Origin: Fibrobacter succinogenes
GTDB lineage: Bacteria; Fibrobacterota; Fibrobacteria; Fibrobacterales; Fibrobacteraceae
Direction of reading: 5' to 3'
Assembly (NCBI GenBank): GCA_902756345.1
Contig: CACVQR010000011.1
Location: forward strand, 1-64,000
DNA: 64,000 nucleotides
Below are positions 34,997-55,529 of this stretch, one piece after another; positions within the stretch are counted from its first letter, which is position 1, and each line of letters begins with the position of its first letter. A program made the translations under genes and the position numbers. The notes under the pieces were generated by a model, which ran no database searches, was not told where the DNA came from, and was given only the letters and a program-made list of their open reading frames with translations.

Positions 34997-35004
34997 GAGG
35001 TTTT

Positions 35005-38527: not shown

Positions 38528-38974
38528 ATGAAAATGTTATTGGCTGCAACGGCTCTGTTGCTTTTGGCTGGGTGTTCTTTCCTGGATCAGGGATTTACGA
38601 CTGCGCCCGATAAGGCGGTATCGCTTGAAGATATTCAAGGGTGCTATTACTATGAAGGAATGGGTGATAGAGACTTTTTGTGCGCAGAGATGTGTGTAGA
38701 CAGTGTCTTGCATTTTCATACCCGTCTTTATTCGAAAGAGGATGTGAATTTAGAGTCTCCCTATAATGATTCTATTTACGTATGGGATATTGAAGCCCAG
38801 CGCCCGGAAGCGGATGGGACGATGAACGTAAATTTCCGTATGAATGGTCCCCACAATGCGGTGATGAATTATTTAGGTGGTGCTGAAGAACAATTGTATG
38901 TTTATGGCCAAATGCCTTATTATTGGCGTGAAGCCATTTATTCAAAGCAGAAGGGGGCAAGATGCGTGTACTAA
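38528..38974 (+). CDS. Small lipoprotein, cassette A
   Basis: Predicted 148 aa from MKMLLAATALLLL; GAGGAG lies upstream, while the frame opens 10 codons earlier. Lipobox LAG-C. After a short linker comes SLEDIQGCYYYEGMGDRDFL, then CAEMCVDSVLHFHT, a layout shared with the lipoprotein at 52826 (SLEDLQGCFYALG, CKSVCIVGDTVNF). It ends GARCVY. Its last 13 bases overlap the start of the barrel gene, which points to coupled translation. Function unknown. Confidence 0.75.
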   Translation: MKMLLAATALLLLAGCSFLDQGFTTAPDKAVSLEDIQGCYYYEGMGDRDFLCAEMCVDSVLHFHTRLYSKEDVNLESPYNDSIYVWDIEAQRPEADGTMNVNFRMNGPHNAVMNYLGGAEEQLYVYGQMPYYWREAIYSKQKGARCVY

Positions 38975-39543
38975 TTCTTTGCCTGTTCCTTGTTGCGACA
39001 TATGCGAATGCCTTTTTTGCCTATGGTAATTTAGGCGATTCCAGATTGCAATGCAAAAATAACGTGTATCGTCCGGCGGGCATTGTGGGCTATACCCTTG
39101 GAGTAGGTGTTTTTGACGAACTGGAAAATATGGTGGACTACAAGATGTCCTTTGGACTCACGCGAGCAGGGTATTCATACGATGATGGTGACGAGAGTGT
39201 GTCGCTGTACATGCTCGACATCCATTTGATTTCTTGGTCTGTCAAGATTCATAATGTTTATGTCGAAGCATTTGGCGGTCTTTCGTATTTGTTGATCTAT
39301 TCGAATTTTTCGGATTACATGGAAGAAAAGGTCGGCGAAAAATTTATTGACCAGGAACGTTTGTACCCGAAATACGGATTCCGTTTGGGCTATTACGTCA
39401 TGGACAACTTGCTTGTTGGCGTGACGGCAAATTACAACATGGTTCATTGGCGTTACGGCAAGACTCGCAGCTGGGCCGGTAATAATAACGAATCCCTGTT
39501 TATTGGCGGCATTGGTCTTTCTGTTCTGTACAATATTTTCTAG
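38962..39543 (+). CDS. Small outer-membrane barrel protein, cassette A
   Basis: Predicted 193 aa with a signal peptide (MRVLILCLFLVATYANA-FF). The barrel-like body contains YRPAGIVGYTLGVGVFDELE, MVDYKMSFGLTRAGYSYDDG, and it ends IGGIGLSVLYNIF, a terminal Phe. It is paralogous over its whole length to the protein at 53290-53859 (YKPAGIVALSLESGFFDEID, VDYSMSFELKRFGYAYNDGD, IAGIGLSVMYNLF). It probably forms an eight-strand barrel in the outer membrane and pairs with the preceding lipoprotein. Confidence 0.8.
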   Translation: MRVLILCLFLVATYANAFFAYGNLGDSRLQCKNNVYRPAGIVGYTLGVGVFDELENMVDYKMSFGLTRAGYSYDDGDESVSLYMLDIHLISWSVKIHNVYVEAFGGLSYLLIYSNFSDYMEEKVGEKFIDQERLYPKYGFRLGYYVMDNLLVGVTANYNMVHWRYGKTRSWAGNNNESLFIGGIGLSVLYNIF

Positions 39544-39546
39544 TGT

Positions 39547-40032
39547 ATGAATAACCTGCTTAAAGCGATTGCCCTTGCGTTTTTGATTCCTTGCGCGTTA
39601 TTTGCGCAGGTGATGCCTGACACGTTGAAAAGCGAACTTCAAGATAGTACCGAGGTTGACGCTGTTAATGGATATGATGTCAATGGCAATACTTGTTTTA
39701 AAAAAGATCCGATGCTTTGCCACAAGATGTTGTATCGTGAAGTGGGGCTTTTGAAGTGGGAATATAAGCTGGATTATGAAAAGGTTGATGTGGATAAGCT
39801 TTATCCATATTTAAAGGCGAACCCAGAATCGCGTGGAAATTATTGGGCTTCTCGTGTAACGTGGTTTTTGGGGGTAGGGAGTCTTTTGTATACAGCTGTT
39901 GCGTGTCCTCTTTTTCTTGCTACGGGGTCTAAAGCTATTGGGATTTCTTGGGGTGTATCGTTTGCTGCGGGATTGGCTCTAGGTATCACGTCTGTGACAG
40001 AATTGCATATTGCAATTGATGATTATAAATAA
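39547..40032 (+). CDS. Hypothetical envelope protein
   Basis: Predicted 161 aa with a signal peptide (MNNLLKAIALAFLIPCALFA-QV). It has a soluble segment with two Cys (NTCFKKDPMLCHKMLYREVG) and two C-terminal hydrophobic helices (WFLGVGSLLYTAVACPLFLA; IGISWGVSFAAGLALGITSV). It starts 3 bases after the barrel gene. The following gene is a shorter relative. Function unknown. Confidence 0.7.
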   Translation: MNNLLKAIALAFLIPCALFAQVMPDTLKSELQDSTEVDAVNGYDVNGNTCFKKDPMLCHKMLYREVGLLKWEYKLDYEKVDVDKLYPYLKANPESRGNYWASRVTWFLGVGSLLYTAVACPLFLATGSKAIGISWGVSFAAGLALGITSVTELHIAIDDYK

Positions 40033-40047
40033 TGGAGTTAATTGCCG

Positions 40048-40425
40048 ATGAGAAACCTATTTAAAGCGATTGTATTGGCGTTAGAAGAAGTATCCAGTGA
40101 ACATCATATGATATACTACGATGATTTGCTGATAGGTACAGAGTTTTATCTAGATGGAAAAGTCGTGAACGATTTATCCGAGATTAGGCGGTATTTGCTC
40201 GCGAACGAATATTCTAGACCTTATGCTAAGGTGTCTAATTGGGTTAGGGCGTTTGCATATCTTTTTGCAGGGGCTAGTGGAATGATGCTTGTGGGCGGAT
40301 TTGTGACTGAAAGTCCTTATAGCAAGTACCTCTTCATTGGCTCGGCCGCTTCGTTTGTTGTCGGTATTACCGGCGGATTTGTTTCTGGACATTATCTAGA
40401 AAAAGCGATTGACGAGTATCAATAG
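40048..40425 (+). CDS. Shortened paralog of the preceding gene
   Basis: Predicted 125 aa from MRNLFKAIVLALEEVSSEHH; an in-frame TTG two codons upstream has a better-placed GGAG. The first 10 residues match the preceding protein (MNNLLKAIALAF), but the rest of the signal peptide and the Cys segment are missing, and the protein jumps to EEVSSEHHMIYYDDLL. The two C-terminal helices (WVRAFAYLFAGASGMMLVGG; YLFIGSAASFVVGITGGFVS) and the end EKAIDEYQ align with the longer copy (LHIAIDDYK). It may be a decaying duplicate or an inner-membrane variant. Confidence 0.6.
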   Translation: MRNLFKAIVLALEEVSSEHHMIYYDDLLIGTEFYLDGKVVNDLSEIRRYLLANEYSRPYAKVSNWVRAFAYLFAGASGMMLVGGFVTESPYSKYLFIGSAASFVVGITGGFVSGHYLEKAIDEYQ

Positions 40426-40440
40426 CACTTGTATTGCATT

Positions 40441-40458
40441 GTATTACGTTTGTAATAC
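40441..40458. promoter_or_regulatory. Palindrome upstream of the giant gene
   Basis: GTATTAC-GTTT-GTAATAC is a perfect 7-bp inverted repeat located 129 bases before the ATG of the 4,076-aa protein. It could be an operator or, less likely, a weak terminator for the gene that ends at 40425 (no T-tract follows). Confidence 0.4.
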
Positions 40459-40527
40459 GAATCTTAAATTTATATTATTTTGTTTGCGTTTTGTGGATAA
40501 ATTATCAAGATGATTTACACAAAATTG

Positions 40528-40556
40528 TTTACAAACTATTAAAAAAATTCTATATA
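40528..40556 (+). promoter_or_regulatory. Putative promoter of the giant gene
   Basis: TTTACA (40528-40533), a 17-base spacer and TATATA (40551-40556) resemble a housekeeping promoter. The start site would fall about 24 bases before the ATG at 40587, leaving room for GGAGAG. Confidence 0.5.
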
Positions 40557-40586
40557 TTCGTGATAAATTAACGTTTGGAGAGAAAA

Positions 40587-43500
40587 ATGCGCTTAAAGCA
40601 CGTATTTCTGTTTTTGTCTATGGTTTCCATTGCGTTCTCTGCCCCGATGGAACCTGCAAGATCCACTTTGTTTATCCTTCTTGATGGAATGAATCCGTCA
40701 AACAAAGGTTTGCTGCAAGACTATTGCGAACACTATGAAAATAGTGAAGTTTGGGGTAAAACTGGTGCGGCAAAATACTTCCAAGAAAACGTTGTAAATA
40801 CAAAGGCGAACGTTTATTCCAGATCGTATAAAAACCCTGCAGATGCGCCTTCTGCAATGGTATCGGAATTGGCTGGGCATGGGAATACGGTGCAGAAGGT
40901 CAACTGCAAAGAAAACGTGATGGTTTATGATGCTGGTAAGAAAGAATTTTCTTCTGGTTCCAGTAAGGATATGCAGATAAGTTCCATTGTCGATGAAGCG
41001 TTGGAACATTGGTTTGCAAACAAATTGGCTGAAGTGAATTTGCCGTTGCCAACAAATGCCGCAGATAAAATAGGCCTCTTGAAAAAAAGAGACACGTGGA
41101 GTGGCTCTGCCAATAGTTATACTCCTAAGAATACGTATAAGGCGGAATTTGCAGATATAGATCCGTTTTTGTATGCGTGGTTGAATAATTATAAAGCCAA
41201 AAATGGGAATTATCCTACTCTCGAAACGTTGAAAAAAGAGCGCCCGGATTTCTTGCCGTCGCGTTACGTGTTTGTTGCGAATGGTATGGGTGGTATGGTT
41301 GCTCGTGAATATATTCAGGGCAGCGGATATCAGGGTGATGTTGAAAAAATTTTGTTTATTAATACTCCGCATGAAGGTACGGGTTTTGCAGACCAGGCTT
41401 TGTTGAGTAAGGATATGGATTATTATCATGCTCATAATTCGTTAGGATCAGCATTGGCATTTTTAATACCGGTGGTTACGCTTGTTTATGTGGGTTCTGA
41501 TTATTTTGTAGAAGATTCAATAATGTCTTTTACTAAAACAATACTTCAAGCGCTTGGTAGTATAGCGAAGGGTTCTATAAGCGGTAATTTTAACGATCAC
41601 TACTTTGAAGACTATAATGTTACAGATGGTGCATTGTGGTATTCGGCTCAAGATGCTGATAAACGTGATTTGCTTTATAATAGCATAAGGGAGGATGCTA
41701 AAGACAGTAAAGTCGATACTTTAATAGGTAGAACACAATTGCTGAATTCAATGGGGATGCGAAACACGTATTCGGATCCGTTATATCGTATAATTTATTC
41801 TTATGGCATGCCTTCCGTTGGTAATGGGAGACGTACTCGTGCGGACTTTCTCTTTCAGAAGAAATATCATGTAGATGAAGAACACTTGAATGAGCAACTG
41901 ATTGATGTGTACAAGTCTTCAGTTAAAACCTTCCTTTTGGATACGCTTGGTCTAAAAGAGGATATTGTTGACGCTTATTCATTTCAATTGTCGGAATTTT
42001 TAAGACATAAGAAAATTGATATTCGAAATCTTAATTTGAATGCACGATTTGATGTTGGCGTGACGGATTGGATATTGGAACATGCATCTGATTTAATTAA
42101 TAATGAGAAAATGGCGAAACAAATTTTAGAAGGTGCGACGGATTTTGCTGTTGGAAAAGCTGTTGATTTTGTTGCTGATAATGTTGTTGGTGCTTTACTG
42201 GAATGGATTGATTTGGGAGGAATGATTGATGACCTGCCAACGTTCTGGGTGAATCTTATTACGGTATTGGAAGAAATAATTCCGCAAAATTTCCAAGAGA
42301 AATTTGTTTCTGCCTTTATTTCTTCTTATTCGCCTAAGTATAAGGGGATGGAGGCTTCGGCAGATAATTGCGATATAGGTGGAATATCTTTTAATCCGCT
42401 TAAATTTGCTGATAATTTTTCAAATTTGGCAAGCTTGGCAAGTTCAGAGGACCGTTTGAAAAATTGTCTTGCAGCTGGGCATAAGGATATGGCGCGTGGA
42501 TTAATTAATTATTCAATAAATTTCTTTGAGCAAGGAACTTATGACGTTCCTTCTTACAGTGCTTATGGCGGTGGCGTTTCATTATTTAAAGATAAGGATG
42601 TGTTGCGCAATGCTTATCCATTACATACCATGTCTACAAGCGATTCTGATTATAGGTCTTATAGAAACATACTTGCTGTTGATGGCGCATTTGAGTCGAA
42701 TCGAAAATTGATAGACCAAGGGCTTAAAGTAGTATGTCTTGCTCTTAGTTGGACGGGTACTGAAATCCCATGTAAAATAGCCAAATATGCTACAAATATT
42801 GGCTTTGCAACATCGCAAATGGCGTTGACATCGGTAGCTTTTGGGGAGTATGGGGTCCTGGAACAGTCTACCAATATGACTTTTAATGCGTCTTTAGAAG
42901 CAAAGCATTCTAAGGAAGTTTCTTTGCATAGTGGAGCAAAACGATTAATTTCGTACTCCGATATGGACGAAATGCTTTACGAAAAACCGTATATGAGCTT
43001 GCAGATGGTTTCGACTAAAGAAGGCGATGTTGTGAAAGCGTATCCCTTGTTGCTTATAGAAGAAAGTAGTGATGGTTATGGCGATATTCCTGAAATTGTT
43101 GACTATAATCAGTTGAATAGTGTGTATACTCAAAGGTACATAGCGAAAAATGGTTCGTCAGAAGGTTTCGACCTCTCTAATTTTTACGCTCCCACAGGGC
43201 CAGCAGAAAATTTGAAAAATAAGAATCTTGTTACAAATGAAGACTATTACGCAATGTCTTTGAAAGATGTTTCGTATAAGAATTGGACGAATGGATCTAT
43301 TACGCGTGAAATATCACGAAAAGAAATGCCGGCAATGATTGTTAAGGACGAGATTAAGGAATACCGTTTCCAGATAGATGATTTGCGCCCAGATCTTATA
43401 TGGCAAATAGGTCTAGACTTTAACTTGGATGTTCAGTTCTATTTTGAACGTAATACTAATGGAACGTGGGATTCATATATCGAAAGAAATGGAAATGATA

Positions 43501-46500
43501 GAATTTATATTGATAGGGCAATTGCTGTACCTCCTATAAATGAAATGGGACAGTTTGTATTCCGTCCGATGTATTTGGCTGATGAAGCGAATAAGCTTAT
43601 AACAGATGTAAATAAGAAATTTGCTCATAATAAGATACAAGCGGAAGGTCCGAACCTTGTAACTGTGTTTGTGAAGAACGTAATGGATATGTCTGCTTCT
43701 CAACAGTTCTCGTTCTATTATCAAGCGACCCTTCCGTACTTGCGCGAAGGTTGGCCGACATATTTACAGACTGTATCTTCTTTGGATGATATTTATATTA
43801 CTGCTGCCAATCAGGGTGATCCGTATGCGTTTACAAAGGCAGAAGTATGCTTGGTTAAATCCGATAATGGATCGTATACGCAGGTTCCGAATAGTTGTGT
43901 AGATGCAAATGTTAATTATGTGAAAAATGAAAATAATGATGCAGCATGGGATCAACTATGGCGAATGGAAGCGCATCTTGGTGATGGCTTTATTGAGAAG
44001 AATAATATTGAAGATGGAAACTATATCCTCCAGTGGAAACTCACAACAAAGGATGCGTCTAACAATACCTCTACCTACAATATGAATGTATCGGTAAAGG
44101 TTGATACTAAGAAGCCTGACCTTGCTTTGACTTTGACCAGCACAAATCTTTCGAATACTGCTAGGGATGCTTCTTGGGCAAAGATTTTGAATAATGATGG
44201 GTCGTCGTTAAGAAAAACTCGCGTTTTTGCCATCCCAGAAGGTACGAATGATACGATATGGGTGAAGAGTTATGATGGTACGGGCGTGTCAGAAATGAAT
44301 TTTGGCTGGGGTTTGTCTGTGGGTAAGTTGCCTCAGGGAAAGTCTAAAGTTTATGTACAGTCTGTAGATTATGCGGAACCGAATATTGCGATGGGTATTA
44401 TTCTGCAGGATTTGTATTCGGATGACAAGGATACGGTAAATGCTGCATGGCAGAATATTCTGGAATCTGATGGGGTTTCTTTCAAGAATGGTATTAACGG
44501 AACTACCCTTATCCAAGAAATTGTTATTGATAATGACGCTCCGGCAATCGATATGGGTTCTGTGACAACGGCTACAGTTGCAAATTCTTCCAAACAGTGT
44601 GCAAATTGTCCGGCATATACCAAGAATACAGGCAGTGATTTTGTGGTGAACTCCGCGGAATTGCTAAAACTGAGCTTCAAATTGAATAATGTTCAGAATA
44701 ATGTTGCCCACGATTCTGTGCGAATTCAGGTTATTTTGACTGATACAGATCAGTCGCTTGCAAGGTCTTTTATTGCAATGCATGACTTTAAGGCGAATGC
44801 GACCTATGAATTCGTAGAATCGGGTGATTCAAAAATTCCGGATGGAAAATATTCCCTGTCTGTAGTACTTGTAGATGAGACGGGTAACTCGTCGGGTAAT
44901 ATTGCCTTGCAAAAGACCGTCCGCATTGATAGAACGTTGCCGGTAGTGAATAATGTTGTTCCTAATGAACCGGTGTATGCTTCCGCTGCAGATGTAGACA
45001 AAGCCACATTTACTGTGTCTTCTTCCAAATTGGATGTGAATAAATCGTCTTATGCTTGCTATCAGAAACTGGTTTCCCAAGCTGGAGAAAGCGCTTGGAA
45101 TTATATCGGCGAAGTTTCTGCGGATCAAATGAATGATTCGAAGAAGGTCTCTGTTGAATATTCTATGAAAAATGCCGGAATGACTATTACGGATGGCCGC
45201 TATTCAACAATGGTGGGCTGTTACGATAAGTCTGGCAACTTTAGCAGCAATAGTGGGCCATTTAGTATTGGTTATAGGTATCCTGTTTTAACATATCCCA
45301 CATCGGCGGTAGCAGCTGCGATTGCAGATGATTACATTCAGATTGCTGGTATCGCGCCGAATCCTATTGTTCCCGGCGGCAATATTCAAACTGCGGAATA
45401 TAAGGTTGAATGGCGTAAAGTTGGCGATACCGACTGGAGTGAAAAGGGTGTTCAGTCTACTGGTAAGCTGGTAAGTACGCTTGTCAATAATCTTGCAATA
45501 TGGGATAGGACCAATCTGGCTGCAGGTGATTATGAAATACGACTTTCTGTGAGAGGGTGTAAAGATGACTCTGACGCGAAGTGTGATTGGGTTTCAACAG
45601 TAGAGACGGTTACGTTGGATGTGCTCGATCCTATTGCAATTGCGAATAAGCCTAAAATTACGTTTGCTCTTCCCGTAGATCAAGTTCCAGGTGGTGAAGA
45701 AAAAATTATCAGTTCACAGATGTTGGGTGTGGATGATGGTAGCGAATGGTCCATGGAAATGAAAATTTTGGTGGCGGATCCGTTTGACCCGACGAGTACT
45801 GTAGTTGCTAAAAAAGAATATTTAGATTCAATGATTATTTCTCCGTTTGGCGGAAAGCCTAGTGGAACGTTGCCGCAGGGCCTGTCTATTTGGCAGGATA
45901 AGGATGAATGGACGATTAAATATGTGGGAAAAGTGGAAGCTGCAAAGAATTATTCTGCACCGACATTGGTTTTGAAATATACACATTCGTCTATGGAGTT
46001 TGTAAATTCTACCAAGGCCGATGAAGAGTCGTTCTTGTATGACGACACAACGCAATTTGCTCCAGAATTAGATTTTAGAAGTGTGATAAGTCCAGCATAT
46101 AACTATACTAGTGCATGGGATTTAAGCAATGCAACTGCGTTTGAATTAAGGTTTAAGACTAATGAACCATTTATATTGGATGTGTCTTCTGTGAAGGATG
46201 CGTATGCGAACATGTATTGTGGTGCCATGGGAGATTTGTGCTCAAAGTACTTTGAGTTGTTGAATGAGAACTTTGCAACACTTTTTGTTAATACAAATTC
46301 ATTTAGGATGAATCTTCCGTGGAACGGTTTGACTTCAAATGAAATGTATCCGGGGTCGGATAAGGCGAAAGTGATTGCAATTGCTACTGAAAAGACTCCT
46401 GGAAATCGCGTTATTGTTGATAGTGCGGAATGGAAATTATCTCTCGGAATGCCGGAAATAGTTTCTGATTATGATAATTTGGAAAGTCAGTTGGTAATTT

Positions 46501-49500
46501 CTTCTGAAAAGGATTCTGAAAATACTGTTGTAAGGCTTGGCGAAGTCGGTTACGAATTTGGTATTGCCGGCAGAAGTGCCTTAGTGACGGCTGTTGTAAA
46601 AAATCCTAATGGTGAAATTGTAAAAACATTGATGAATAATGATACTTGTGTTGCTGGTTCTAAGAGGAATGCCTATTCTATCAGTTGGGATGGTGTTTCT
46701 GATAGGCAGTTTGCAAGTATTAATCCTGGCCAATATACTTTTGAAATTAATGCGGTTGATAACGATGGTAACAAGGCTCAGCCCAAGATTTATCCGTTCA
46801 AGGTTGTTTATGCAGGTCATTTGATTGCTGCTCCTGAATCAGAAAATGATTCCGATAATGGAGCGGTTCTTGTGATGGATGAAGCTAAACCTGATGATAA
46901 TGGAGAACTTCGATTTGTCGGTAAACCGGACTATTTATTGACTGCAAATGCTGAAGCTCAAGTATTGTCAGAAGAAAAACGTGAACTGGGTTACTATTGG
47001 GATTGGAAGGGTACGCAGAATCCTGCGTTCTATCGAGCCAATCGATTTAGTCTCGGTATTCGACGTCAGAGAAAGTCGTTCCCAGTGACGATTGTAACTA
47101 TGCTGTCAACTTGGGGATATAGGATGCAGATGGTTGTAAAGCCAAATCCATTTGATTGGGAGGTTGGATATTATGTAAGGGATCGGAGATATGCCTTTAA
47201 CATTGTTGTAAATGATGTGGTTTTTGATAAAGACAATGATGGCGTATTTACTATAGATGATCTTGAGTTAAATGCCCGAGATAATGTTATTGTTGGCCAT
47301 GATAGAAATGGAAATAGGCATTATGATGTAATGGTTTATACAAAGGTGTTTGCGAAAAATGAAGCGATAAAAAATTATAATGGAGCTTCAAATAAATTTG
47401 ATATAATGAGCGATCAAGATGGAAATTGGAAAAAAATGGAGGGAAAGTTTAGGTCTTCAGATGATAGGCTGACAAACTTCATTAATAATTATCCTAATCA
47501 AGGTGGGGTTCTTCTTTGGGAAGAAAAACATGTTTTCGTATCTGATGGCCCAGAATATAATTCAGATCTCAGCTTAGGTTCGAAAACGGTGACTGATGGG
47601 TGTAAACCGAGTGAAGCCAATGGATATGAATGTAATGATGGGTGTAAACTGAATGAAAAAAAAGAATATAAATGTGATGTGCCACCTACAGAAGGATTTA
47701 ATCCGCATAAAAATATGCTTCAAATGGCAATTGTGCATGAAGATAATCATAATGGTTTTTATAATGATCATTACAGTTGTGGTTGCTCAAATAGCGGCAG
47801 TGCTACGAATGTATTCGCTAAGATCAAATATAAGGTGAATGATTCTTATTGGGAGCCTGAATTTGGCTACAGCAACTTGGCGAATAAGTATGTTCGTTTT
47901 GACCATACCAATAAGACTTTGTATAAAGATGGAAACTATTTCCCAATATGCAAAACAGCCGTGAATTTCTATGACGGAATGAATTGGACTCATAAAGATT
48001 ACTATGGCATGGTGACTCCGTTTGAGGTTCAACGATTTAGTTACAATGGTACAGAATGTCCTAAAAACAATCCGTTGCAATTCCCTGACGAAGAGCAAAC
48101 AGGACCGGTTACGCCTTCGAAGTATCAATTTGCGTTCATGGGTGTTGATAATGAAAATAAATATAATGAGGAAAAGTACGGTAAGAAGGTTGATTTTGTC
48201 GCTACGGCAATTGGCTCTGTGGCGGGAATTCAGGTGGCAGATGTTATAACAACTGCTAATGATACAACGCATGTTGGTACGACGATTGGCTATAATGGTT
48301 GGCTTGATCCGAGTATTGATTTCTATGTGACTGCTCGAGCCAAAATTACTGAGGTCGTAAAGCAGTTTGATGAAGTGAAGGTTGCCTATCCTTATAATAA
48401 AGATAGTTTCGCTCCGATTTTACCTAGTGGTGAACAATTGTGCGATATAGATGATGCTGGTAAGATTCGTCTTATAGATGATCAGGACAACCATTGCTTT
48501 AGATATTATCATGCGGCATCTAGAATTCACTATGGTGTTGGAGATTGGAATGATGCTCAATGGATTCAACATTTTGGATCTCCTGCTGATTTGGATTACA
48601 TAAAGAATCCTATGTATGAGAATGTGCTTTCCCCGACGTCTGTAAGCAAACTTTTGGGTGATTTGGAAGAATCATGGGTTAATAATGTTGCACCTCGTGT
48701 TTACAAGAAAGATACTCTTGCTGCAAATGAATATGATGGTAAGGTATGGAGCATAAATTTTGCGAAGATTGCAGAAGGTAATGAGGCGCTAACTTCTACA
48801 ATTGGATCTATCCAACCTAATATTAAACCAGAATTAGTCTTATCTCAGGAATCTGTTGAAAATGGTTGGAAAGTTGATACAGATAAGAACGGAAATGTTA
48901 AGGCAGTTTACAATGCCGGTGATATTGTCAATGCGAACATTGAATACGTTCGTGCAGATGACGATGTAAAGGTGGATTATAATCTGATGCAGCCGCTCGC
49001 TACGGAACAGATATCCAGGGAACGTATAGCAAAACAGAGTAAGGCAGAGATTGTTGCTGGTAATGATTGGGTGAAGAATTTCAAACTTTCTGACCCGAAA
49101 GTCTTTAATAGAAAAGATGGTTCTGAGCATGAATATTTCACGGCTGCAGTTTCTAAGAATGGTGATGAACTTGATGTATCTCGTAACGGCCTTGTTCCGC
49201 AGGAACGTTTGGACGAAATGGTGACACTTCGTGGTCTGGTACCGAGAAATGGAGCTCATTGGACGCTTTCGTATCTTTCTGGAACAAGAATGGTGCCGGT
49301 AGCTTCGGGTACCCAGCGTGAAAAGCGTTTTGATCCTTATCCGCTGCTGAGCAAACTTGATGTAAACACCTTGCAAGGCAATACAAGCTTCTTCTTGACA
49401 TACGGCTTGGATGACGCTGGTGGAGATGTCTATTTCAAGCAGCTTGATGTGCATATCGGTGAATTGCTGAAGCCGACGGAGTCGAAGACTATACAGTCTA

Positions 49501-52500
49501 TGTATGGTAATGCTTCTGTACTCTTCCCGAAGAATTCGTTTGAATCAAGTACAGATGTGACGGTACGTATAGCGAATGTCTCGGATTTGCCACGTGTATT
49601 TGAAGGCCTTGATCCGGTCGGTACTATTGTAGAAGTGCTTCCTTCTCATGAATTCGACCAGAGCGATGATTCGAAATGGCCGCGCGTGACCATCGAAGTG
49701 ACAAAGGAAAGCCTTGGAAATCAAGATCCGCTCGACGTGAAGATTTATAAGCCTGATTTCAAGTCTAAGACGATTGTTCCGTTGGAAGAACAGGAACTTG
49801 GATTCTATGATGCTACAGGCTATCCACTCCTTAAATGCAATAAAAATAGTCCTGTTGCATGCTATGTTCCAGAAGGTTGGGCTATGATTAAGGTTTCTGG
49901 CAAAACGCCTACCTTCTCTAAGTTCATGCTGATGGATAAGGGTAAGGCAGCTCTTGTCAAGGAAATCAAGGAAGAAGAAAAGGTTGTTCCTGAATTTGCT
50001 TGCACGCTTGATAAAATGAATGCAGATACCGTTATTTGGGCTGGCCTCGTAAATGGTTACCTGAAGTACCCGTATCCGTGTGTTGGTGAAAGTAATTACA
50101 TGATTCAGTTGCTCCAGAATAATGCAACGATTGCAGAATTCCAGGAAGTTACGGATTCTGTACTTAAACTCAATGTACGCAAGAATGATTTCTTGGCCAA
50201 GGTGACTTCAAAGGATACTCTTGAATCGAGACTTGCGCTTTATGGTGGCGTAAACAAGAATGTACAGATTGCTGGTCCGTATGTCGTGGCTGATTCGGCG
50301 TTGCCTATATTCGAGGATGCCTCGGTTAAGGTTGAAGACTATGAATTGCAGAAGCGAATCGTTGTCGATGCCGAGTTTGACGATGTCGAAAGCGGAATTG
50401 CCTCGGTTGAATTGCAACTTTATTGGGGCGGAAAGCTTATCGATAGCAGAATCAAGGCCGGTGGTTCTATTATTGAAGAAGACTTCTTGCTTACGAAGAA
50501 AATGGTAACTCAGTGTGTTGGTTGCAAGGCAGAAGTATTTATGACAGCTTATGACTTTGGTCATAACTATATAAAGACTAAGCTTGTTAGCGAAGAAATT
50601 TACCCCTTCCCGAAGTCTCTGGTACTCTGGTACCCGATGGTAGATGGCGCGGGTAGTGTGGCAAAGGAAATGACTGGCACTGATTTGCATTTGAATTTGA
50701 CGTCAATGTATCGTCCGTGGCTGTATGGTGCCGCATTGCACTTTGCTAAAGTTACGGATTATGCAAAACCGACAAAGACATGGGATGGCGTTGGCACTGT
50801 TCCGCTTAGCCTTGAATTTAAGCTTATGTCGAATGTCTCGCGTGGCGGAACGGAATTCGCTATCCTCAGTTGGGATGCCAATAAAAAGTGGCTGGTGGGT
50901 TTAAGTGATGCTCATGACCTGTTCTTTGAATATGCCGGTCAGAAGCTTGTGTTTAAGCAAGCTGCTGTGAGACGTGGCGTTCTGATGCACTATGTGTTCA
51001 CTATAGAAGGCAAAAAGATTCGCCTGTATAAGAATGGGGACTTTGTTGAAGAAAAGGCTTTGGCTTCCGAATTCGTATGGAATACGAAGGGTAAACCGGT
51101 TGCTGGTGCAAATATGAATTACAAATCTATTGGTGCCAATTTGTCGGGAGTTCGCTTCTTCCAGGCTGAATTGACTGATGAAGAAGTTAAGGATCTTTAC
51201 CGTGGTGAAGTTGATATGGTTGAAGCAGACCTTCAGGTGGTTCGCGTGGTTGACCTGCAAGACAGAGAAAACCTTTCTGTAGACCAGGCTTGCGATTTGG
51301 CTGGAATGGCTTACTTACGTCAAGGAAATTCTGAAAATCTGGGTTCTGTGACATGGAAGGTTACGACTACTACAGGTCGCTATAATCTGTATTTGCTCGC
51401 ACGTGGTTATGAAACTATGACCTCTGCAGTAGAAGTTGCGGTTGACGGAGCTGTAATGGGTACATTTGACATGAATAATTCCGGAGTTTGGACAGCGCAG
51501 ACGGTTAACGGTCTCGTTCTGAGCCTTGCTTCGGGTGACCATGAAATTACCGTTACGCCTCTTGGTGTTACTGGCCTTGCTGCTCTTGCGATAGCCAATG
51601 CAGAAAGTGATTTGCCTGCATCAATGATTACTTGGGGTGAAGATAAGTGGACTGTGCCTGATCCCAAGATTCAGGTAGAAATGGCTTATCCTTCTTACTC
51701 GGATAAGACCTGGATGAAGGCTAATTTCCGCTTGAAGAATATTTCTGATGAATCTCTCGAAAATGTCAAGATTCGTTATTACTATAGCGGAGAAGATTAC
51801 TATGTGGCCGCTCAGTCGTTCTATCCGATAGAAGGAATGTCAATTTATGCAGATGCTGCCGATGTATTCTACGCAGAATTGCGCTTGCCTGAAAGCATTC
51901 CTGTTGGTGGAAGCCCCTATTATGGTAATGGTCCGCAAATAGGTGCTTATAGAACGAATAACAATGCTCCGTGGAATTACGATGATGACCCGAGTTTCGA
52001 TCCGGATGCTGTTGATGGTCTGTTCCATGTAACGGATAAGGTGGCTGTATTGGATGGCGAAGGTAATTTGATTTCCAAATTTAGCTGCTACGATGGAACC
52101 GGTCCTGCAAAGCCGAAGACTCCGAAGGTTCGTGCTTTGGCAAGAGATGAAGGCGGTGCATCTAATGTGAATACCATTGCGATGCTGGTGGAAAACGTCG
52201 GCGAAATTCCGCTGAATGGTTTTGAAGTCCGCTATTACGTTCGTGAATCTGCCTTGCCTGAGTTGAATATATATGACAACCAGTTTGCCACGGCTTCGAA
52301 TATCACTTACGTAGATGGCGACCTCTACTACATATCGTTCAAGTACGACAACGTTATTCTCAATCCTGGTGAAAAATCTGATTATGGAAATGGCGTGAAG
52401 TTTGCGCTGCGCCGTACAGATGGTAGTGATTGGGATGCTACTAACGACGCCTCACATTATGGACTTTCGTATAGCTTTGCTCAGGCAGATTCAATCGTGA

Positions 52501-52817
52501 TTTTGGATCAGAATAGGAATCTGCTGTGGGGTGCTACACCTCGTCCGACAAACGCTTTGCCTGAAATTCCAGGTGTTGGCAGCTATGGCGATTATGTTGT
52601 CATTGATCCGGATGGAATTACGGTAGATATTCCTGACGATGGTAAGTATACACTCGAAATGGTTGATATATCAGGTACTTCTCTAACAGTGATATTTAGC
52701 GGTAATTGGAGTGCTGGAGAGCATTACATATCGACTAAAAATATTACATTGATATCTGGTCAGTATATCGTACTCCGCAAGGGAACAACGATACTATCAA
52801 GAGTGTATATAAATTAA
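40587..52817 (+). CDS. Giant secreted multidomain surface protein (4,076 aa) with pseudo-lipase N terminus
   Basis: Start at MRLKHVFLFLSMVSIAFSAP, GGAGAG 4 bases upstream; cleavage near FSA-PM. Residues about 20-330 resemble a lipase-type alpha/beta hydrolase (LFILLDGMNPSNKG; FINTPHEGTGFADQ). The nucleophile elbow reads ANGMGGMVAREY, with Gly233 where Ser is expected, so it is probably not a hydrolase. About 900-2080 holds beta-rich Ig-like repeats (VKVDTKKPDL, IVIDNDAPAI, VRIDRTLPVV) and a FlgD-like unit near 1974-2077. About 2211-2250 has an EF-hand/dockerin-like loop (DKDNDGVFTIDD). Late modules: LamG-like (about 3340-3540), CBM6-like (about 3545-3670), two CBM3-like (about 3690-3830, 3850-3980). 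The last 75 residues (GKYTLEMVDISGTSL... SGQYIVLRKGTTILSRVYI) fit a type IX secretion tail. Probably surface-displayed, binding glycans or substrate. Confidence 0.85.
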   Translation: MRLKHVFLFLSMVSIAFSAPMEPARSTLFILLDGMNPSNKGLLQDYCEHYENSEVWGKTGAAKYFQENVVNTKANVYSRSYKNPADAPSAMVSELAGHGNTVQKVNCKENVMVYDAGKKEFSSGSSKDMQISSIVDEALEHWFANKLAEVNLPLPTNAADKIGLLKKRDTWSGSANSYTPKNTYKAEFADIDPFLYAWLNNYKAKNGNYPTLETLKKERPDFLPSRYVFVANGMGGMVAREYIQGSGYQGDVEKILFINTPHEGTGFADQALLSKDMDYYHAHNSLGSALAFLIPVVTLVYVGSDYFVEDSIMSFTKTILQALGSIAKGSISGNFNDHYFEDYNVTDGALWYSAQDADKRDLLYNSIREDAKDSKVDTLIGRTQLLNSMGMRNTYSDPLYRIIYSYGMPSVGNGRRTRADFLFQKKYHVDEEHLNEQLIDVYKSSVKTFLLDTLGLKEDIVDAYSFQLSEFLRHKKIDIRNLNLNARFDVGVTDWILEHASDLINNEKMAKQILEGATDFAVGKAVDFVADNVVGALLEWIDLGGMIDDLPTFWVNLITVLEEIIPQNFQEKFVSAFISSYSPKYKGMEASADNCDIGGISFNPLKFADNFSNLASLASSEDRLKNCLAAGHKDMARGLINYSINFFEQGTYDVPSYSAYGGGVSLFKDKDVLRNAYPLHTMSTSDSDYRSYRNILAVDGAFESNRKLIDQGLKVVCLALSWTGTEIPCKIAKYATNIGFATSQMALTSVAFGEYGVLEQSTNMTFNASLEAKHSKEVSLHSGAKRLISYSDMDEMLYEKPYMSLQMVSTKEGDVVKAYPLLLIEESSDGYGDIPEIVDYNQLNSVYTQRYIAKNGSSEGFDLSNFYAPTGPAENLKNKNLVTNEDYYAMSLKDVSYKNWTNGSITREISRKEMPAMIVKDEIKEYRFQIDDLRPDLIWQIGLDFNLDVQFYFERNTNGTWDSYIERNGNDRIYIDRAIAVPPINEMGQFVFRPMYLADEANKLITDVNKKFAHNKIQAEGPNLVTVFVKNVMDMSASQQFSFYYQATLPYLREGWPTYLQTVSSLDDIYITAANQGDPYAFTKAEVCLVKSDNGSYTQVPNSCVDANVNYVKNENNDAAWDQLWRMEAHLGDGFIEKNNIEDGNYILQWKLTTKDASNNTSTYNMNVSVKVDTKKPDLALTLTSTNLSNTARDASWAKILNNDGSSLRKTRVFAIPEGTNDTIWVKSYDGTGVSEMNFGWGLSVGKLPQGKSKVYVQSVDYAEPNIAMGIILQDLYSDDKDTVNAAWQNILESDGVSFKNGINGTTLIQEIVIDNDAPAIDMGSVTTATVANSSKQCANCPAYTKNTGSDFVVNSAELLKLSFKLNNVQNNVAHDSVRIQVILTDTDQSLARSFIAMHDFKANATYEFVESGDSKIPDGKYSLSVVLVDETGNSSGNIALQKTVRIDRTLPVVNNVVPNEPVYASAADVDKATFTVSSSKLDVNKSSYACYQKLVSQAGESAWNYIGEVSADQMNDSKKVSVEYSMKNAGMTITDGRYSTMVGCYDKSGNFSSNSGPFSIGYRYPVLTYPTSAVAAAIADDYIQIAGIAPNPIVPGGNIQTAEYKVEWRKVGDTDWSEKGVQSTGKLVSTLVNNLAIWDRTNLAAGDYEIRLSVRGCKDDSDAKCDWVSTVETVTLDVLDPIAIANKPKITFALPVDQVPGGEEKIISSQMLGVDDGSEWSMEMKILVADPFDPTSTVVAKKEYLDSMIISPFGGKPSGTLPQGLSIWQDKDEWTIKYVGKVEAAKNYSAPTLVLKYTHSSMEFVNSTKADEESFLYDDTTQFAPELDFRSVISPAYNYTSAWDLSNATAFELRFKTNEPFILDVSSVKDAYANMYCGAMGDLCSKYFELLNENFATLFVNTNSFRMNLPWNGLTSNEMYPGSDKAKVIAIATEKTPGNRVIVDSAEWKLSLGMPEIVSDYDNLESQLVISSEKDSENTVVRLGEVGYEFGIAGRSALVTAVVKNPNGEIVKTLMNNDTCVAGSKRNAYSISWDGVSDRQFASINPGQYTFEINAVDNDGNKAQPKIYPFKVVYAGHLIAAPESENDSDNGAVLVMDEAKPDDNGELRFVGKPDYLLTANAEAQVLSEEKRELGYYWDWKGTQNPAFYRANRFSLGIRRQRKSFPVTIVTMLSTWGYRMQMVVKPNPFDWEVGYYVRDRRYAFNIVVNDVVFDKDNDGVFTIDDLELNARDNVIVGHDRNGNRHYDVMVYTKVFAKNEAIKNYNGASNKFDIMSDQDGNWKKMEGKFRSSDDRLTNFINNYPNQGGVLLWEEKHVFVSDGPEYNSDLSLGSKTVTDGCKPSEANGYECNDGCKLNEKKEYKCDVPPTEGFNPHKNMLQMAIVHEDNHNGFYNDHYSCGCSNSGSATNVFAKIKYKVNDSYWEPEFGYSNLANKYVRFDHTNKTLYKDGNYFPICKTAVNFYDGMNWTHKDYYGMVTPFEVQRFSYNGTECPKNNPLQFPDEEQTGPVTPSKYQFAFMGVDNENKYNEEKYGKKVDFVATAIGSVAGIQVADVITTANDTTHVGTTIGYNGWLDPSIDFYVTARAKITEVVKQFDEVKVAYPYNKDSFAPILPSGEQLCDIDDAGKIRLIDDQDNHCFRYYHAASRIHYGVGDWNDAQWIQHFGSPADLDYIKNPMYENVLSPTSVSKLLGDLEESWVNNVAPRVYKKDTLAANEYDGKVWSINFAKIAEGNEALTSTIGSIQPNIKPELVLSQESVENGWKVDTDKNGNVKAVYNAGDIVNANIEYVRADDDVKVDYNLMQPLATEQISRERIAKQSKAEIVAGNDWVKNFKLSDPKVFNRKDGSEHEYFTAAVSKNGDELDVSRNGLVPQERLDEMVTLRGLVPRNGAHWTLSYLSGTRMVPVASGTQREKRFDPYPLLSKLDVNTLQGNTSFFLTYGLDDAGGDVYFKQLDVHIGELLKPTESKTIQSMYGNASVLFPKNSFESSTDVTVRIANVSDLPRVFEGLDPVGTIVEVLPSHEFDQSDDSKWPRVTIEVTKESLGNQDPLDVKIYKPDFKSKTIVPLEEQELGFYDATGYPLLKCNKNSPVACYVPEGWAMIKVSGKTPTFSKFMLMDKGKAALVKEIKEEEKVVPEFACTLDKMNADTVIWAGLVNGYLKYPYPCVGESNYMIQLLQNNATIAEFQEVTDSVLKLNVRKNDFLAKVTSKDTLESRLALYGGVNKNVQIAGPYVVADSALPIFEDASVKVEDYELQKRIVVDAEFDDVESGIASVELQLYWGGKLIDSRIKAGGSIIEEDFLLTKKMVTQCVGCKAEVFMTAYDFGHNYIKTKLVSEEIYPFPKSLVLWYPMVDGAGSVAKEMTGTDLHLNLTSMYRPWLYGAALHFAKVTDYAKPTKTWDGVGTVPLSLEFKLMSNVSRGGTEFAILSWDANKKWLVGLSDAHDLFFEYAGQKLVFKQAAVRRGVLMHYVFTIEGKKIRLYKNGDFVEEKALASEFVWNTKGKPVAGANMNYKSIGANLSGVRFFQAELTDEEVKDLYRGEVDMVEADLQVVRVVDLQDRENLSVDQACDLAGMAYLRQGNSENLGSVTWKVTTTTGRYNLYLLARGYETMTSAVEVAVDGAVMGTFDMNNSGVWTAQTVNGLVLSLASGDHEITVTPLGVTGLAALAIANAESDLPASMITWGEDKWTVPDPKIQVEMAYPSYSDKTWMKANFRLKNISDESLENVKIRYYYSGEDYYVAAQSFYPIEGMSIYADAADVFYAELRLPESIPVGGSPYYGNGPQIGAYRTNNNAPWNYDDDPSFDPDAVDGLFHVTDKVAVLDGEGNLISKFSCYDGTGPAKPKTPKVRALARDEGGASNVNTIAMLVENVGEIPLNGFEVRYYVRESALPELNIYDNQFATASNITYVDGDLYYISFKYDNVILNPGEKSDYGNGVKFALRRTDGSDWDATNDASHYGLSYSFAQADSIVILDQNRNLLWGATPRPTNALPEIPGVGSYGDYVVIDPDGITVDIPDDGKYTLEMVDISGTSLTVIFSGNWSAGEHYISTKNITLISGQYIVLRKGTTILSRVYIN

Positions 52818-52825
52818 GGTAACTT

Positions 52826-53305
52826 ATGAACTATCCAAAGAAAATATTAGTAGGATTACTTCTGTCTCTATTGGCGAGTTGTGCCATGTTTGATGAAAAT
52901 GGATTGTCTCTTGCGTCCGAGAAAGCCTCGTTAGAAGATCTTCAAGGATGTTTCTATGCTTTGGGTAGTTCATTTGAAACCGTATATGAAGCTGGATATA
53001 AATCGCTGTATTATAAATGGTGTAAAAGCGTTTGCATTGTAGGTGATACGGTGAATTTTTCAAGTTATAAGATTTATACGGATAAGGATTATTCAAAAAT
53101 TGATCCTGATAGGCAACCTGTGAGTAGTACAGAAAGCAAATCGCTTACCTTGTTGGAACCCGCTGCTCACGGAGCCTTCTATTACAATGTGAAAATTGGA
53201 AAGGAAGACTATTACTTTGAAAATGTTAACGGAGTACGTTCTCTAGAAACAAGAAATGATTCAAAATATGTTGCCTCGGAGGATGCTGTATGCGATTCGT
53301 TTTAA
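52826..53305 (+). CDS. Small lipoprotein, cassette B
   Basis: Predicted 159 aa. Lipobox LLAS-C at about residue 19. The block KASLEDLQGCFYALGSSFET and the CKSVCIVGDTVNF stretch match the lipoprotein of cassette A, and the end has a lone Cys (DAVCDSF). It starts 8 bases after the giant gene's stop, so it is likely in the same operon. The last 16 bases overlap the next gene's start, as in cassette A. Confidence 0.75.
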   Translation: MNYPKKILVGLLLSLLASCAMFDENGLSLASEKASLEDLQGCFYALGSSFETVYEAGYKSLYYKWCKSVCIVGDTVNFSSYKIYTDKDYSKIDPDRQPVSSTESKSLTLLEPAAHGAFYYNVKIGKEDYYFENVNGVRSLETRNDSKYVASEDAVCDSF

Positions 53306-53859
53306 TCGTGGTTGCTTTATGTGTGATTAATGCAAACGCATTCTTTGTTGGCGGACGTATTGGGGAAAGCCGTTTACAGTCAGAGAACGTGATTTATAAG
53401 CCCGCCGGAATTGTAGCTCTGTCACTTGAGTCGGGATTTTTTGATGAAATTGATAATTCGGTAGACTATTCAATGTCCTTTGAATTAAAGCGATTCGGTT
53501 ATGCCTATAACGATGGGGATAACAGTGTTGCCTTTTGGTCCGTAGGCTTAAAACCTATGATATGGACTTTTTCTTTTTGGCAGATGTATGTACAGGGCTA
53601 TTTGTCCTTGGCGTTCATTGCGGTTCACGATGAATTTGAATCAGCAATGGAAGAACATTATTTTGATGGTTTTGACTCGCATCGATTTTTTTGGGGAAGC
53701 GGCTTGGCCATTGGATATCGCATTCAAGAAAAATTGAGTGTTGCTTTGTCTTATGATATCAATACTCTTTTTATTCTTGAGAGTAGATCGAAATATCGCT
53801 ATGAGACCAACTACTCTATAGCAGGTATCGGTCTTTCTGTTATGTATAACCTTTTTTAA
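53290..53859 (+). CDS. Small outer-membrane barrel protein, cassette B
   Basis: Predicted 189 aa with a signal peptide (MRFVLIVVALCVINANA-FF). It aligns end to end with the 193-aa protein of cassette A, including the opening FF.(Y/G)G..G(D/E)SRLQ and the ending IAGIGLSVMYNLF. Barrel-like strand pattern with a final Phe. The two cassettes flank the giant gene, suggesting that the pair helps to place or hold it at the outer membrane; that role is inference. Confidence 0.8.
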   Translation: MRFVLIVVALCVINANAFFVGGRIGESRLQSENVIYKPAGIVALSLESGFFDEIDNSVDYSMSFELKRFGYAYNDGDNSVAFWSVGLKPMIWTFSFWQMYVQGYLSLAFIAVHDEFESAMEEHYFDGFDSHRFFWGSGLAIGYRIQEKLSVALSYDINTLFILESRSKYRYETNYSIAGIGLSVMYNLF

Positions 53860-53876
53860 CTAATAGGAATAATTAA

Positions 53877-54518
53877 ATGAAAAAAGTACTCATTTCTCTG
53901 TTGCTTATCTGCACGGCATCTTTTGCTCTGTCTTTAGATGATGTAAGGAAGGGCTTGAAGACATCGTCCATTAGCGAAGATTCTTTGGAGATGAAGTTCA
54001 AAACGACAATTACTTCTCCGATGATTGGTTCGCAGACAATGGATACTTATAGTGTTCGTAAGGGACCCAACAAGGTTTATTTCGAAATGACGAATAAGCT
54101 CTTGAGCCAGCGCATGATTCTTTCGGGCAATAAAATCAAGATCATTGACTTGAAGAATAAGTCTGAAAAGATTGTCAATAACAGTGCACAGATGCAAAAA
54201 ATGATGCAGTCCCCGAGCTCTAACCCGATGGAAAAGGGAAATTGGAAAGAACCTGTATTGGTATCGGGTGATGTATACCGAATCGAAGGTGATTCTGCTA
54301 CCGTATATTACGATGCATCTAAAAAGCACCTTGTGAAAATGGAACAGGTTACCGATAAGGCAAATACCCTTACGACATTTGAATATAATCCGTCTACCAA
54401 AATGATGTCTGCCATGAAGATTTCTGTTATGATTGGCAATCAGGAAACCAAGATAGAGATGGTATTCTCGAAGTATCAGAATTCCAAGAATTTCTCGGAT
54501 AAGGTATTTGATTTTTAA
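53877..54518 (+). CDS. LolA-like outer-membrane lipoprotein sorting protein
   Basis: Predicted 213 aa with a signal peptide (MKKVLISLLLICTASFA-LS). The mature part follows the LolA/LolB-like half-barrel: DSLEMKFKTTITSPMIGSQT, VRKGPNKVYFEMTNKLLSQR, MILSGNKIKIIDLKNKSEKI, GDVYRIEGDSATVYYDASKK, HLVKMEQ. This fold carries acyl chains or lipoproteins across the periplasm. It lies 17 bases after the cassette B barrel gene, so it is probably part of the same transcript. It may be dedicated to the local lipoproteins, which is inference. Confidence 0.75.
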   Translation: MKKVLISLLLICTASFALSLDDVRKGLKTSSISEDSLEMKFKTTITSPMIGSQTMDTYSVRKGPNKVYFEMTNKLLSQRMILSGNKIKIIDLKNKSEKIVNNSAQMQKMMQSPSSNPMEKGNWKEPVLVSGDVYRIEGDSATVYYDASKKHLVKMEQVTDKANTLTTFEYNPSTKMMSAMKISVMIGNQETKIEMVFSKYQNSKNFSDKVFDF

Positions 54519-54584
54519 GTTAAAGTAGACTGAAGAAGCCCTTTTCGTGGATGGTTCTTCCCGAAATTTTGTATCTTGTAGGGC

Positions 54585-55529
54585 ATGAATAAGAAGATCC
54601 TCGCTGTTAGTCTTGTTGCATGTTCCCTTGCTTTTGCCGGGGAGCATTGGAATGTGGATGCCGGCGGGGTATCGATGAAGTACCTCTCGATGCATGCTTC
54701 GGCTAGGACTGCCGGCCTTTCGGGGGTGGGCGTCGCCGATGCAGCGAATGCTTCTGAAATTTCGCGTAACCCGCTGGCTATGTCCGCGGTTCAAGAGGCC
54801 GAGGCAGGTATCAACCATATTATTTTCCCGGAAATGACGGCCGATGACTTTACGACGGCGTATTTGGCGCTCCCGTTCGAGTTCTGGAAATTCCCGCTCA
54901 CGGCGTCGGCTGGATTTGAATTCCTGGGTTACGACGGCATCGAGGGCCGCGACGAAGAGGGTTTCAAGACGTCGGAATACGGTGCCTACGCCTGGTCGCT
55001 CTCGGCGGGCCTCGGTAACCGCAGCAAGGTTTTTAACTGGGCAACGTCGGCGCGTTTGAGTGTGCAGACGATTGATGACGAATCGGCGATTGCGTTCCTT
55101 GGCGATGTGGGTGGCGCCTACCATGTGAATGAATACTTTGCCTTTGGCGCGACCCTTACGAACTTTGGTTACATGAGCGACTACGACGGCGAAGATGAAA
55201 CTGCCCCGATGGCATTGCAGGCAGGCATTACGGGCATTTTGCCGATTGCAAAGTTCTTTGACTTGCAGAGCAATTGGAACTTGCATGTGTCTGCCGACGC
55301 TTACCGCCGCGCCGATATGCAGGACCCCGAATGGCGATTCGGTGGCGAACTGAATTACGCTGACTTGCTTGCGTTCCGCATGGGTTATGCGGTGCGCCCC
55401 GATACCGAAGACGGAATCAGTGCGGGCCTTGGCGTTGCCGTCGGTATGGCGCATTTCGATTACGCCTACAGCCCCAAAAAAGCGTTTGACGGCGGCTACC
55501 ACTACCTGACGCTTGGCATTCGATTCTAA
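54585..55529 (+). CDS. PorV/PorQ-family outer-membrane protein (type IX secretion)
   Basis: Predicted 314 aa with a signal peptide (MNKKILAVSLVACSLAFA-GE). The family signature follows: SARTAGLSGVGVADAANASE, ISRNPLAMS (the 'GAR..GMGGA..A..DDa.a...NPA' motif). The rest is a barrel of about 14 strands ending YHYLTLGIRF. In T9SS organisms PorV shuttles cargo from the translocon to the attachment complex. Its nearness to a giant protein with a T9SS-like tail fits. A TATCTTGT element ends 5 bases before the ATG. The stop is one base from the converging gene's stop. Confidence 0.82.
   Translation: MNKKILAVSLVACSLAFAGEHWNVDAGGVSMKYLSMHASARTAGLSGVGVADAANASEISRNPLAMSAVQEAEAGINHIIFPEMTADDFTTAYLALPFEFWKFPLTASAGFEFLGYDGIEGRDEEGFKTSEYGAYAWSLSAGLGNRSKVFNWATSARLSVQTIDDESAIAFLGDVGGAYHVNEYFAFGATLTNFGYMSDYDGEDETAPMALQAGITGILPIAKFFDLQSNWNLHVSADAYRRADMQDPEWRFGGELNYADLLAFRMGYAVRPDTEDGISAGLGVAVGMAHFDYAYSPKKAFDGGYHYLTLGIRF

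Follow-up and report, generated by a model that had tools for sequence, protein, structure and literature searches.

The nearest described counterparts of the locus reported here are SprB-SprF and the other pairs of an adhesin with a type B C-terminal domain (CTD) and a PorP-like shuttle, which belong to the type IX secretion system of Flavobacterium johnsoniae (PMC9143113, PMC12618676). We analyzed a stretch of 64,000 nucleotides from Fibrobacter succinogenes (assembly GCA_902756345.1, contig CACVQR010000011.1, positions 1 to 64,000), which is referred to in full as the window. It contains a gene for a giant predicted surface protein flanked by two pairs of genes, each comprised of a lipoprotein gene and a small outer membrane barrel gene (LP1-barrel1 upstream and LP2-barrel2 downstream), and a LolA-like gene follows the second pair. 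As with SprB-SprF, the giant surface protein gene adjoins a barrel gene (in the window and in a related genome, G034), and a type IX translocon is encoded. Unlike SprF, a 14-stranded barrel of the PorP/SprF family, the window barrel is about 190 aa long, is of the OMP_b-brl type, is joined by a lipoprotein and a LolA-fold gene, and can be replaced by FISUMP lipoproteins. The C-terminal domain of the giant also differs from that of type A and type B CTD cargo in matching no curated model.

Three further comparisons are relevant. Specialized LolA/LolB paralogs occur in Bacteroidota, namely, LolA1/LolB1 of F. johnsoniae (PMC11885536) and LolA3 of P. gingivalis (PDB 9tp6). The window protein has the LolA fold in common with them, and additional LolA-type proteins with specialized clients are known; the window gene differs in being tied to one giant and its lipoprotein module. 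The FISUMP and fibro-slime proteins (TIGR02145 and TIGR02148; PMC4704652) come from Fibrobacter and have a link to cellulose, FISUMP being one of the cellulose-binding proteins listed for the Fibrobacteres (PMC4704652). In human microbiomes, FISUMP also occurs among the variable-protein domains of diversity-generating retroelements (PMC4159848). In Pfam and NCBIfam scans, neither family matched the giant, the paired lipoproteins, or the barrels. Lastly, the orphan-cassette loci of contact-dependent inhibition (CDI) and Rhs systems (PMC3482391) resemble this locus in having displaced giant-gene ends and alternative small genes, with conserved flanks around a divergent center. They differ in that here the C terminus of the giant is conserved, the part that appears to be exchanged is a surface lipoprotein, and no toxin domain is recognized.

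We propose, with a probability of about 0.5, that the locus encodes a polysaccharide-binding surface protein exported by the type IX system, together with a chaperone of the LolA fold and an outer membrane lipoprotein partner that can be exchanged.

The giant and the LolA-like gene form the conserved core of the locus

The comparison set consisted of 168 genomes of the phylum, mostly metagenome-assembled genomes (MAGs). Relatives of the giant were found in 42 of these, all Fibrobacteraceae and distributed over eight genera; where complete, the proteins are mostly 3,500 to 4,100 aa long. The cultured isolate Fibrobacter intestinalis ATCC 43854 carries at least three copies, and no second giant was detected in the window's own genome. 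The family is apparently undescribed: no description was found in the open-access literature, subscription papers lying outside that search. One contig filed under a Bacteroidales MAG (L176) carries a giant nested within Fibrobacter sequences in the tree, and this contig probably is mis-binned or mislabeled.

The LolA-like gene is present in 41 of the 42 giant-bearing genomes and in 9 of the 126 others (kinship between genomes not corrected). Its 213-aa product was modeled by AlphaFold with a pLDDT of 86.4, and the best Foldseek matches in the PDB were LolA/LolB (E values of 1e-6 to 1e-5), as anticipated by a preliminary description of the window, which had noted a LolA-like gene at the end of the locus. 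The gene lies 8 to 16 bp behind the giant in most loci of one giant subfamily (Ser type; the subfamilies are defined below); in most loci of the other (Gly type), an inserted module separates the two. The giant and the LolA-fold gene are the conserved core of the locus. A distant LolA-like paralog (L153, G000:C10) is fused to a Ser-rich lipoprotein N terminus, and the product of a neighboring gene has a type IX-like tail.

Alternative lipoprotein modules occupy the slot between giant and lolA

The slot between giant and lolA is occupied by a lipoprotein-barrel pair in the window and in G034. In most other Gly-type loci it is occupied by FISUMP lipoproteins (with lipoboxes), which are the commonest occupants. 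Orphan cassettes comprised of a giant 3' tail, FISUMP, and lolA were found in G013, G059, G026, G028, G038, G152, and the F. intestinalis isolate (G139); examples are L223 (G059:C34, three in a row), L097 (G013:C4), L222 (G013:C3), and L235 and L237 (F. intestinalis C36 and C21). Across the loci of G013, G021, G059, and G041, mean identity was 92% for the tails and 86% for LolA, compared with 48% for FISUMP. In G013, the intact giant is followed by two FISUMP genes whose products share 95% and 99% identity with the two of an orphan cassette in G059; conversely, the FISUMP protein encoded after the G059 giant, also intact, has its best match (75%) in an orphan cassette of G013. Since the flanks are conserved, the center is divergent, and the placement is reciprocal, these data suggest that slot modules are exchanged by recombination. 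No orphan cassette was found in the window's own genome, which also has the single giant, so it is only from the relatives that we infer exchange.

A more specific and clearly more tentative version of this idea is that the giant 3' end and lolA might serve as regions of homology on either side of an expression slot. Exchange with displaced cassettes by recombination would then switch the lipoprotein that is displayed with the giant (FISUMP or LP-barrel), amounting to partner switching for fiber adhesion at the outer membrane, and would be mirrored at the 5' side of the Ser subfamily by cassettes of a c2 lipoprotein gene and a truncated head (see below).

The lipoprotein-barrel pair is one version of the slot module

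The preliminary description had called the two pairs clearly paralogous. This holds for the barrels (37% identity over 193 aa; E value of 1e-43); the lipoproteins are less alike in direct comparison (28%; E value of 2e-6) and belong to one family, defined by an invariant lipobox Cys, four further invariant Cys residues, and a 'QGC(Y/F)Y'-type motif. Many of the top structural matches of the lipoprotein model are lipocalins, with a best E value of only 0.1. OMP_b-brl was matched by 12 of 22 barrel family members (best E value of 8.6e-7), and none matched PorP/SprF in Pfam. In the barrel tree, barrel1 groups with the barrel of another species (82% identity to G017:C56) and barrel2 falls in a different subfamily, and local duplication as the origin of the two window pairs was rejected on this basis. 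At nearly all of the pair loci examined, the barrel gene follows a lipoprotein gene of this same family and overlaps it slightly, which indicates that the pairing exceeds chance.

Barrel relatives were found in 26 of the 168 genomes. Giant and pair occur together in 14, the pair without a giant in 12, and the giant without a pair in 28 (Fisher P value of 8e-4; relatedness uncorrected). The pair adjoins an intact giant at three loci (the window, G034, and G067:C22); at some other pairs the contig ends before the flanks can be read (e.g., G022, G050, and G062). A third pair in the window's own genome (L034, G000:C1:86583-87131) is on another contig with no giant nearby, in a neighborhood that is conserved in G004, G044, and G074. 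The modest overlap between genomes was initially read as refuting a link between giant and pair. This reading was overturned when the pair loci were scanned for giant and LolA fragments.

The scan revealed giant-gene scars at six otherwise orphan-looking pairs in three genera. In G036, the last 58 residues of a giant lie just 5' of the lipoprotein gene and a lolA scar lies 3' of the barrel gene. A 65-residue giant tail precedes the pair of G070, with an intact lolA behind it, and the pair at G067:C13 is flanked by a broken giant tail and a broken lolA. N-terminal giant fragments were found 1.9 kb downstream of the pair in G071 and ahead of the pair in G136 (another genus), and both N-terminal and C-terminal fragments precede the pair in G145 (a third genus). 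All giant-derived fragments in the scanned pair loci were within about 2 kb of the pair, and the pairs next to giants or scars are of several barrel subfamilies, often in the same slot. These scars indicate that a substantial share of the scattered pairs are relics of giant loci or displaced cassettes. Since LP-barrel cassettes share the architecture of the orphan cassettes, the pair is best regarded as one form of the slot module.

A natural giant-less site was identified in G017 (C56), the orthologous locus of the window, where the DNA aligns up to 39619 and again from 54562. This site retains the GH45-type genes, pair 1, its own relative of the small membrane protein gene P0003 in between, and the PorV-like gene; it has no P0004, giant, pair 2, or LolA-like gene. 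Loss of the giant segment in G017 would be the simpler reading, because G034 has a giant near the same GH45-type genes.

Domain architecture and predicted export of the giant

The N-terminal head of the giant was assigned to the PGAP1-like alpha/beta hydrolases through a homologous free-standing head (PGAP1; E value of 1.2e-10). In an alignment of 21 heads, the nucleophile position is Ser in 13 and Gly in 8, the latter being all 8 aligned members of the window's subfamily (Gly233 in the window). Compared with PGAP1-like hydrolases, the elbow motif is roughly kept; the window's subfamily differs in its Gly and in an altered N-terminal His-Gly motif, and the sister subfamily retains Ser. A tree of the core region separates Ser-type from Gly-type giants by a single change with full support, and each type is present in more than one genus. 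With its nucleophile replaced, the window's head is unlikely to have hydrolase activity. A giant of another genus (L231, G123:C69) has Asp at this position (AHDMGG).

Downstream of the head are Ig-like domains, a LamG domain, and then a carbohydrate-binding region with one CBM35-like and two CBM3-like modules, the two-module CBM3 reading depending partly on the alignment. A profile of this region matched CBM3 chains in the PDB with E values down to 1.9e-10 and CBM35 chains to 4.5e-7. The Pfam CBM_3 model was matched by 12 of 15 family members; the window's own sequence is below threshold (20.1 versus 22.4 bits). A sequence search of the PDB with the conserved core (residues 2400 to 3320) gave no match. 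On the strength of these modules, the giant probably binds plant cell wall polysaccharide, a reading that the two GH45-type genes upstream of the locus also favor.

The giant begins with a hydrophobic Sec-type signal, MRLKHVFLFLSMVSIAFSAP, as judged by inspection. The window's own genome encodes SprA/Sov (above the cutoff) and 54 type IX tails (TIGR04183), and comparison of the giant tail with the latter by hhalign gave a probability of 87% (E value of 4e-6 for the single comparison). Type IX export of the giant is therefore a likely route on sequence grounds. Type IX secretion was proposed earlier for cellulases of F. succinogenes (PMC6851124).

Ser-type giants and c2 lipoprotein genes

Within the genus, a c2 lipoprotein gene lies directly upstream of 13 of 13 Ser-type giants examined and of none of 8 Gly-type giants, and the slot between giant and lolA is empty in the Ser-type loci. 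The c2 protein could be an inhibitor or chaperone of the hydrolase. The perfect correlation follows from one split in the tree, and in another genus (G134:C17) c2 genes lie upstream of a Gly-type giant; it was rejected as independent evidence. Arrays in which c2 lipoprotein genes alternate with truncated active-Ser heads were observed upstream of Ser-type giants (L106, G044:C9; L108-L109, G012:C3; L126, G064:C28). At L224 (G005:C9, 8072 to 10047), lipoprotein remnants and an intact c2 gene precede an N-terminal giant fragment that passes straight into the second half of a LolA-like gene, an arrangement that reads as a large internal deletion.

Proposed mechanism and competing explanations

In the proposed mechanism, the giant would be exported across the outer membrane through the type IX system by means of its C-terminal domain, and the LolA-like protein would escort the lipoprotein of the cassette to the outer membrane. 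There the lipoprotein (with the barrel in the window's version) may dock on the conserved C-terminal end of the giant, adding binding or anchoring. The CBM3, CBM35, and LamG modules would hold plant fiber, with the hydrolase head as a binding tip that does not cleave, and the module would be swapped when giant 3' ends and lolA copies recombine.

Several observations weigh against this proposal. The tail of the giant matched no curated CTD model in NCBIfam and is not among the TIGR04183 hits of its own genome. The nine genomes noted above carry a LolA-like gene with no detected giant. The Ser-family giants and that of G021 have an empty slot, so no slot module is essential family-wide. A longer ancestral array that lost different members in different lineages would yield a pattern identical to that of exchange. 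Repeated cassettes also are prone to misassembly in MAGs, which is partly mitigated by the isolate genome.

The preliminary description had considered the region one locus in which the pair served as a dedicated anchor or assembly factor for the giant, and had suggested looking for pairs beside giants in other Fibrobacter genomes. A pair of this kind would be to the giant what SprF is to SprB. The unity of the locus is upheld by the LolA fold and by the adjacency and scars that link pairs to giants. Intact giants have a pair next to them at three loci (in the window, one on each side), the scars point to an old association spanning three genera, and SprB-SprF is a known precedent for a barrel gene beside the gene of a giant adhesin (PMC9143113). 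A pair required for display nevertheless is unlikely: no pair was detected in 28 of the 42 giant genomes and no giant in 12 of the 26 pair genomes, the giant's close relatives hold FISUMP lipoproteins in the slot, and the barrels fall outside the PorP/SprF family in Pfam. On co-occurrence (14 of 42 genomes, versus 41 of 42 for the LolA-like gene), the pair was rejected as the constant partner of the giant. Pairs thus flank giants at some loci and not always, and both scattered pairs and giants mostly without a pair, which had been named as grounds for abandoning the anchor model, were found, though scars mark a substantial share of those pairs as relics or displaced cassettes. The anchor model could be true for the window version only. 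We consider it even less probable that the pairs are unrelated mobile or hitchhiking genes found near giants by chance. The majority of pair loci have neither a giant nor a scar nearby, and pair 1 holds its position in G017 where the giant is absent. Against this, giant fragments in the scanned loci were confined to the vicinity of the pair, pairs from several subfamilies show such adjacency, often at the same slot, and co-occurrence is raised (14 genomes with both); the scars beside orphan pairs in particular make a purely unrelated passenger improbable.

An equally doubtful explanation is contact-dependent antagonism, in which the giant would carry a toxic head, neighboring lipoproteins would protect the producer, and the orphan cassettes would be those of a polymorphic toxin locus. 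The displaced gene ends and alternative small genes do resemble orphan toxin/immunity cassettes, and Ser-subfamily giants, like most truncated heads, adjoin a c2 lipoprotein gene. However, the window's head has no nucleophile, and FISUMP and the LP-barrel pair are unlike immunity proteins, FISUMP being instead a listed cellulose binder (PMC4704652). The exchanged downstream part is the partner, with the giant's own tail conserved, and near the C terminus only CBM and LamG modules are recognized. Pfam and NCBIfam scans of the giant, lipoprotein, barrel, and LolA-like proteins revealed no toxin domain or cognate immunity protein.

Layout of the window

The coordinates of the locus are given in Table 1. 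All open reading frames of the preliminary description were present at its coordinates, including the overlaps of 13 bases (LP1/barrel1) and 16 bases (LP2/barrel2). Its gene inventory stood for the genes listed and had missed P0003 and P0004, between barrel1 and the giant, and the PorV/PorQ gene after the LolA-like gene. The PorV-like gene was excluded from the module on the grounds that giants do not have it as a conserved neighbor and that the giant-less G017 locus retains it. Upstream of the FISUMP gene are two GH45-type glycoside hydrolase genes (33446 to 36423), which are present in two copies in G034 and G017 as well. A YhgA-like putative transposase gene (Transposase_31; 36529 to 37476, minus strand) is absent from the orthologous G017 locus. 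Promoter and terminator scans yielded site numbers no higher than in shuffled sequences, so spacing is the sole guide to operon structure.

Table 1. Features of the giant-protein locus in the window
Feature	Position	Strand	Evidence or remark
FISUMP (Fib_succ_major) lipoprotein gene, upstream of pair 1	37735..38442	+	Pfam 4.6e-26, TIGR02145 1.7e-42; lipobox FSAC
LP1, pair 1 lipoprotein	38528..38974	+	Lipobox Cys16 plus four invariant Cys; AlphaFold pLDDT 84, eight strands
barrel1, pair 1 small outer membrane barrel	38962..39543	+	Signal peptide, C-terminal Phe; 82% identical to G017:C56 barrel
P0003, small membrane protein	39547..40032	+	Relatives in G034 and at the giant-less G017 locus
P0004, second small membrane protein, without clear signal peptide	40042 or 40048..40425	+	Weakly similar to P0003
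Giant surface protein gene (predicted), 4,076 aa from ATG	40587..52817	+	Homologs in 42/168 phylum genomes
Gly233 codon, nucleophile-Ser position of hydrolase head	41283..41285	+	Alignment of 21 heads
LamG-type domain, giant residues 3424-3535	50856..51191	+	Pfam Laminin_G_3, 2.3e-9
CBM35-like module, then two CBM3-like modules	51300..52560, approximate	+	Profile versus PDB; CBM_3 in relatives
C-terminal domain resembling type IX secretion tails	52593..52814, approximate	+	Profile match to own-genome TIGR04183 tails
LP2, pair 2 lipoprotein, in slot between giant and LolA-like gene	52826..53305	+	Same lipoprotein family as LP1
barrel2, pair 2 small outer membrane barrel	53290..53859	+	Paralog of barrel1; subfamily of G036/G012/G013/G051
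LolA-like chaperone gene (putative), near-constant partner of the giant	53877..54518	+	LolA/LolB fold, co-occurrence
PorV/PorQ-family outer membrane protein gene	54585..55529	+	NF033709, 4.6e-32, above cutoff
Stretch missing at orthologous locus G017:C56 (P0004, giant, pair 2, LolA-like gene)	39620..54561	.	DNA alignment

Implications for fiber attachment

Fibrobacter breaks down crystalline cellulose while closely apposed to the fiber, and its mode of attachment is unsettled. A giant family with cellulose-binding-type modules, spread through the Fibrobacteraceae, present in cultured F. intestinalis ATCC 43854, and coupled to its own LolA-fold protein, bears on this attachment. If the LolA-like protein serves the module lipoprotein, the locus would provide a clean test case for cargo-dedicated LolA delivery. 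If module exchange is true, the surface partner of the adhesin would be changed while the adhesin itself stays the same.

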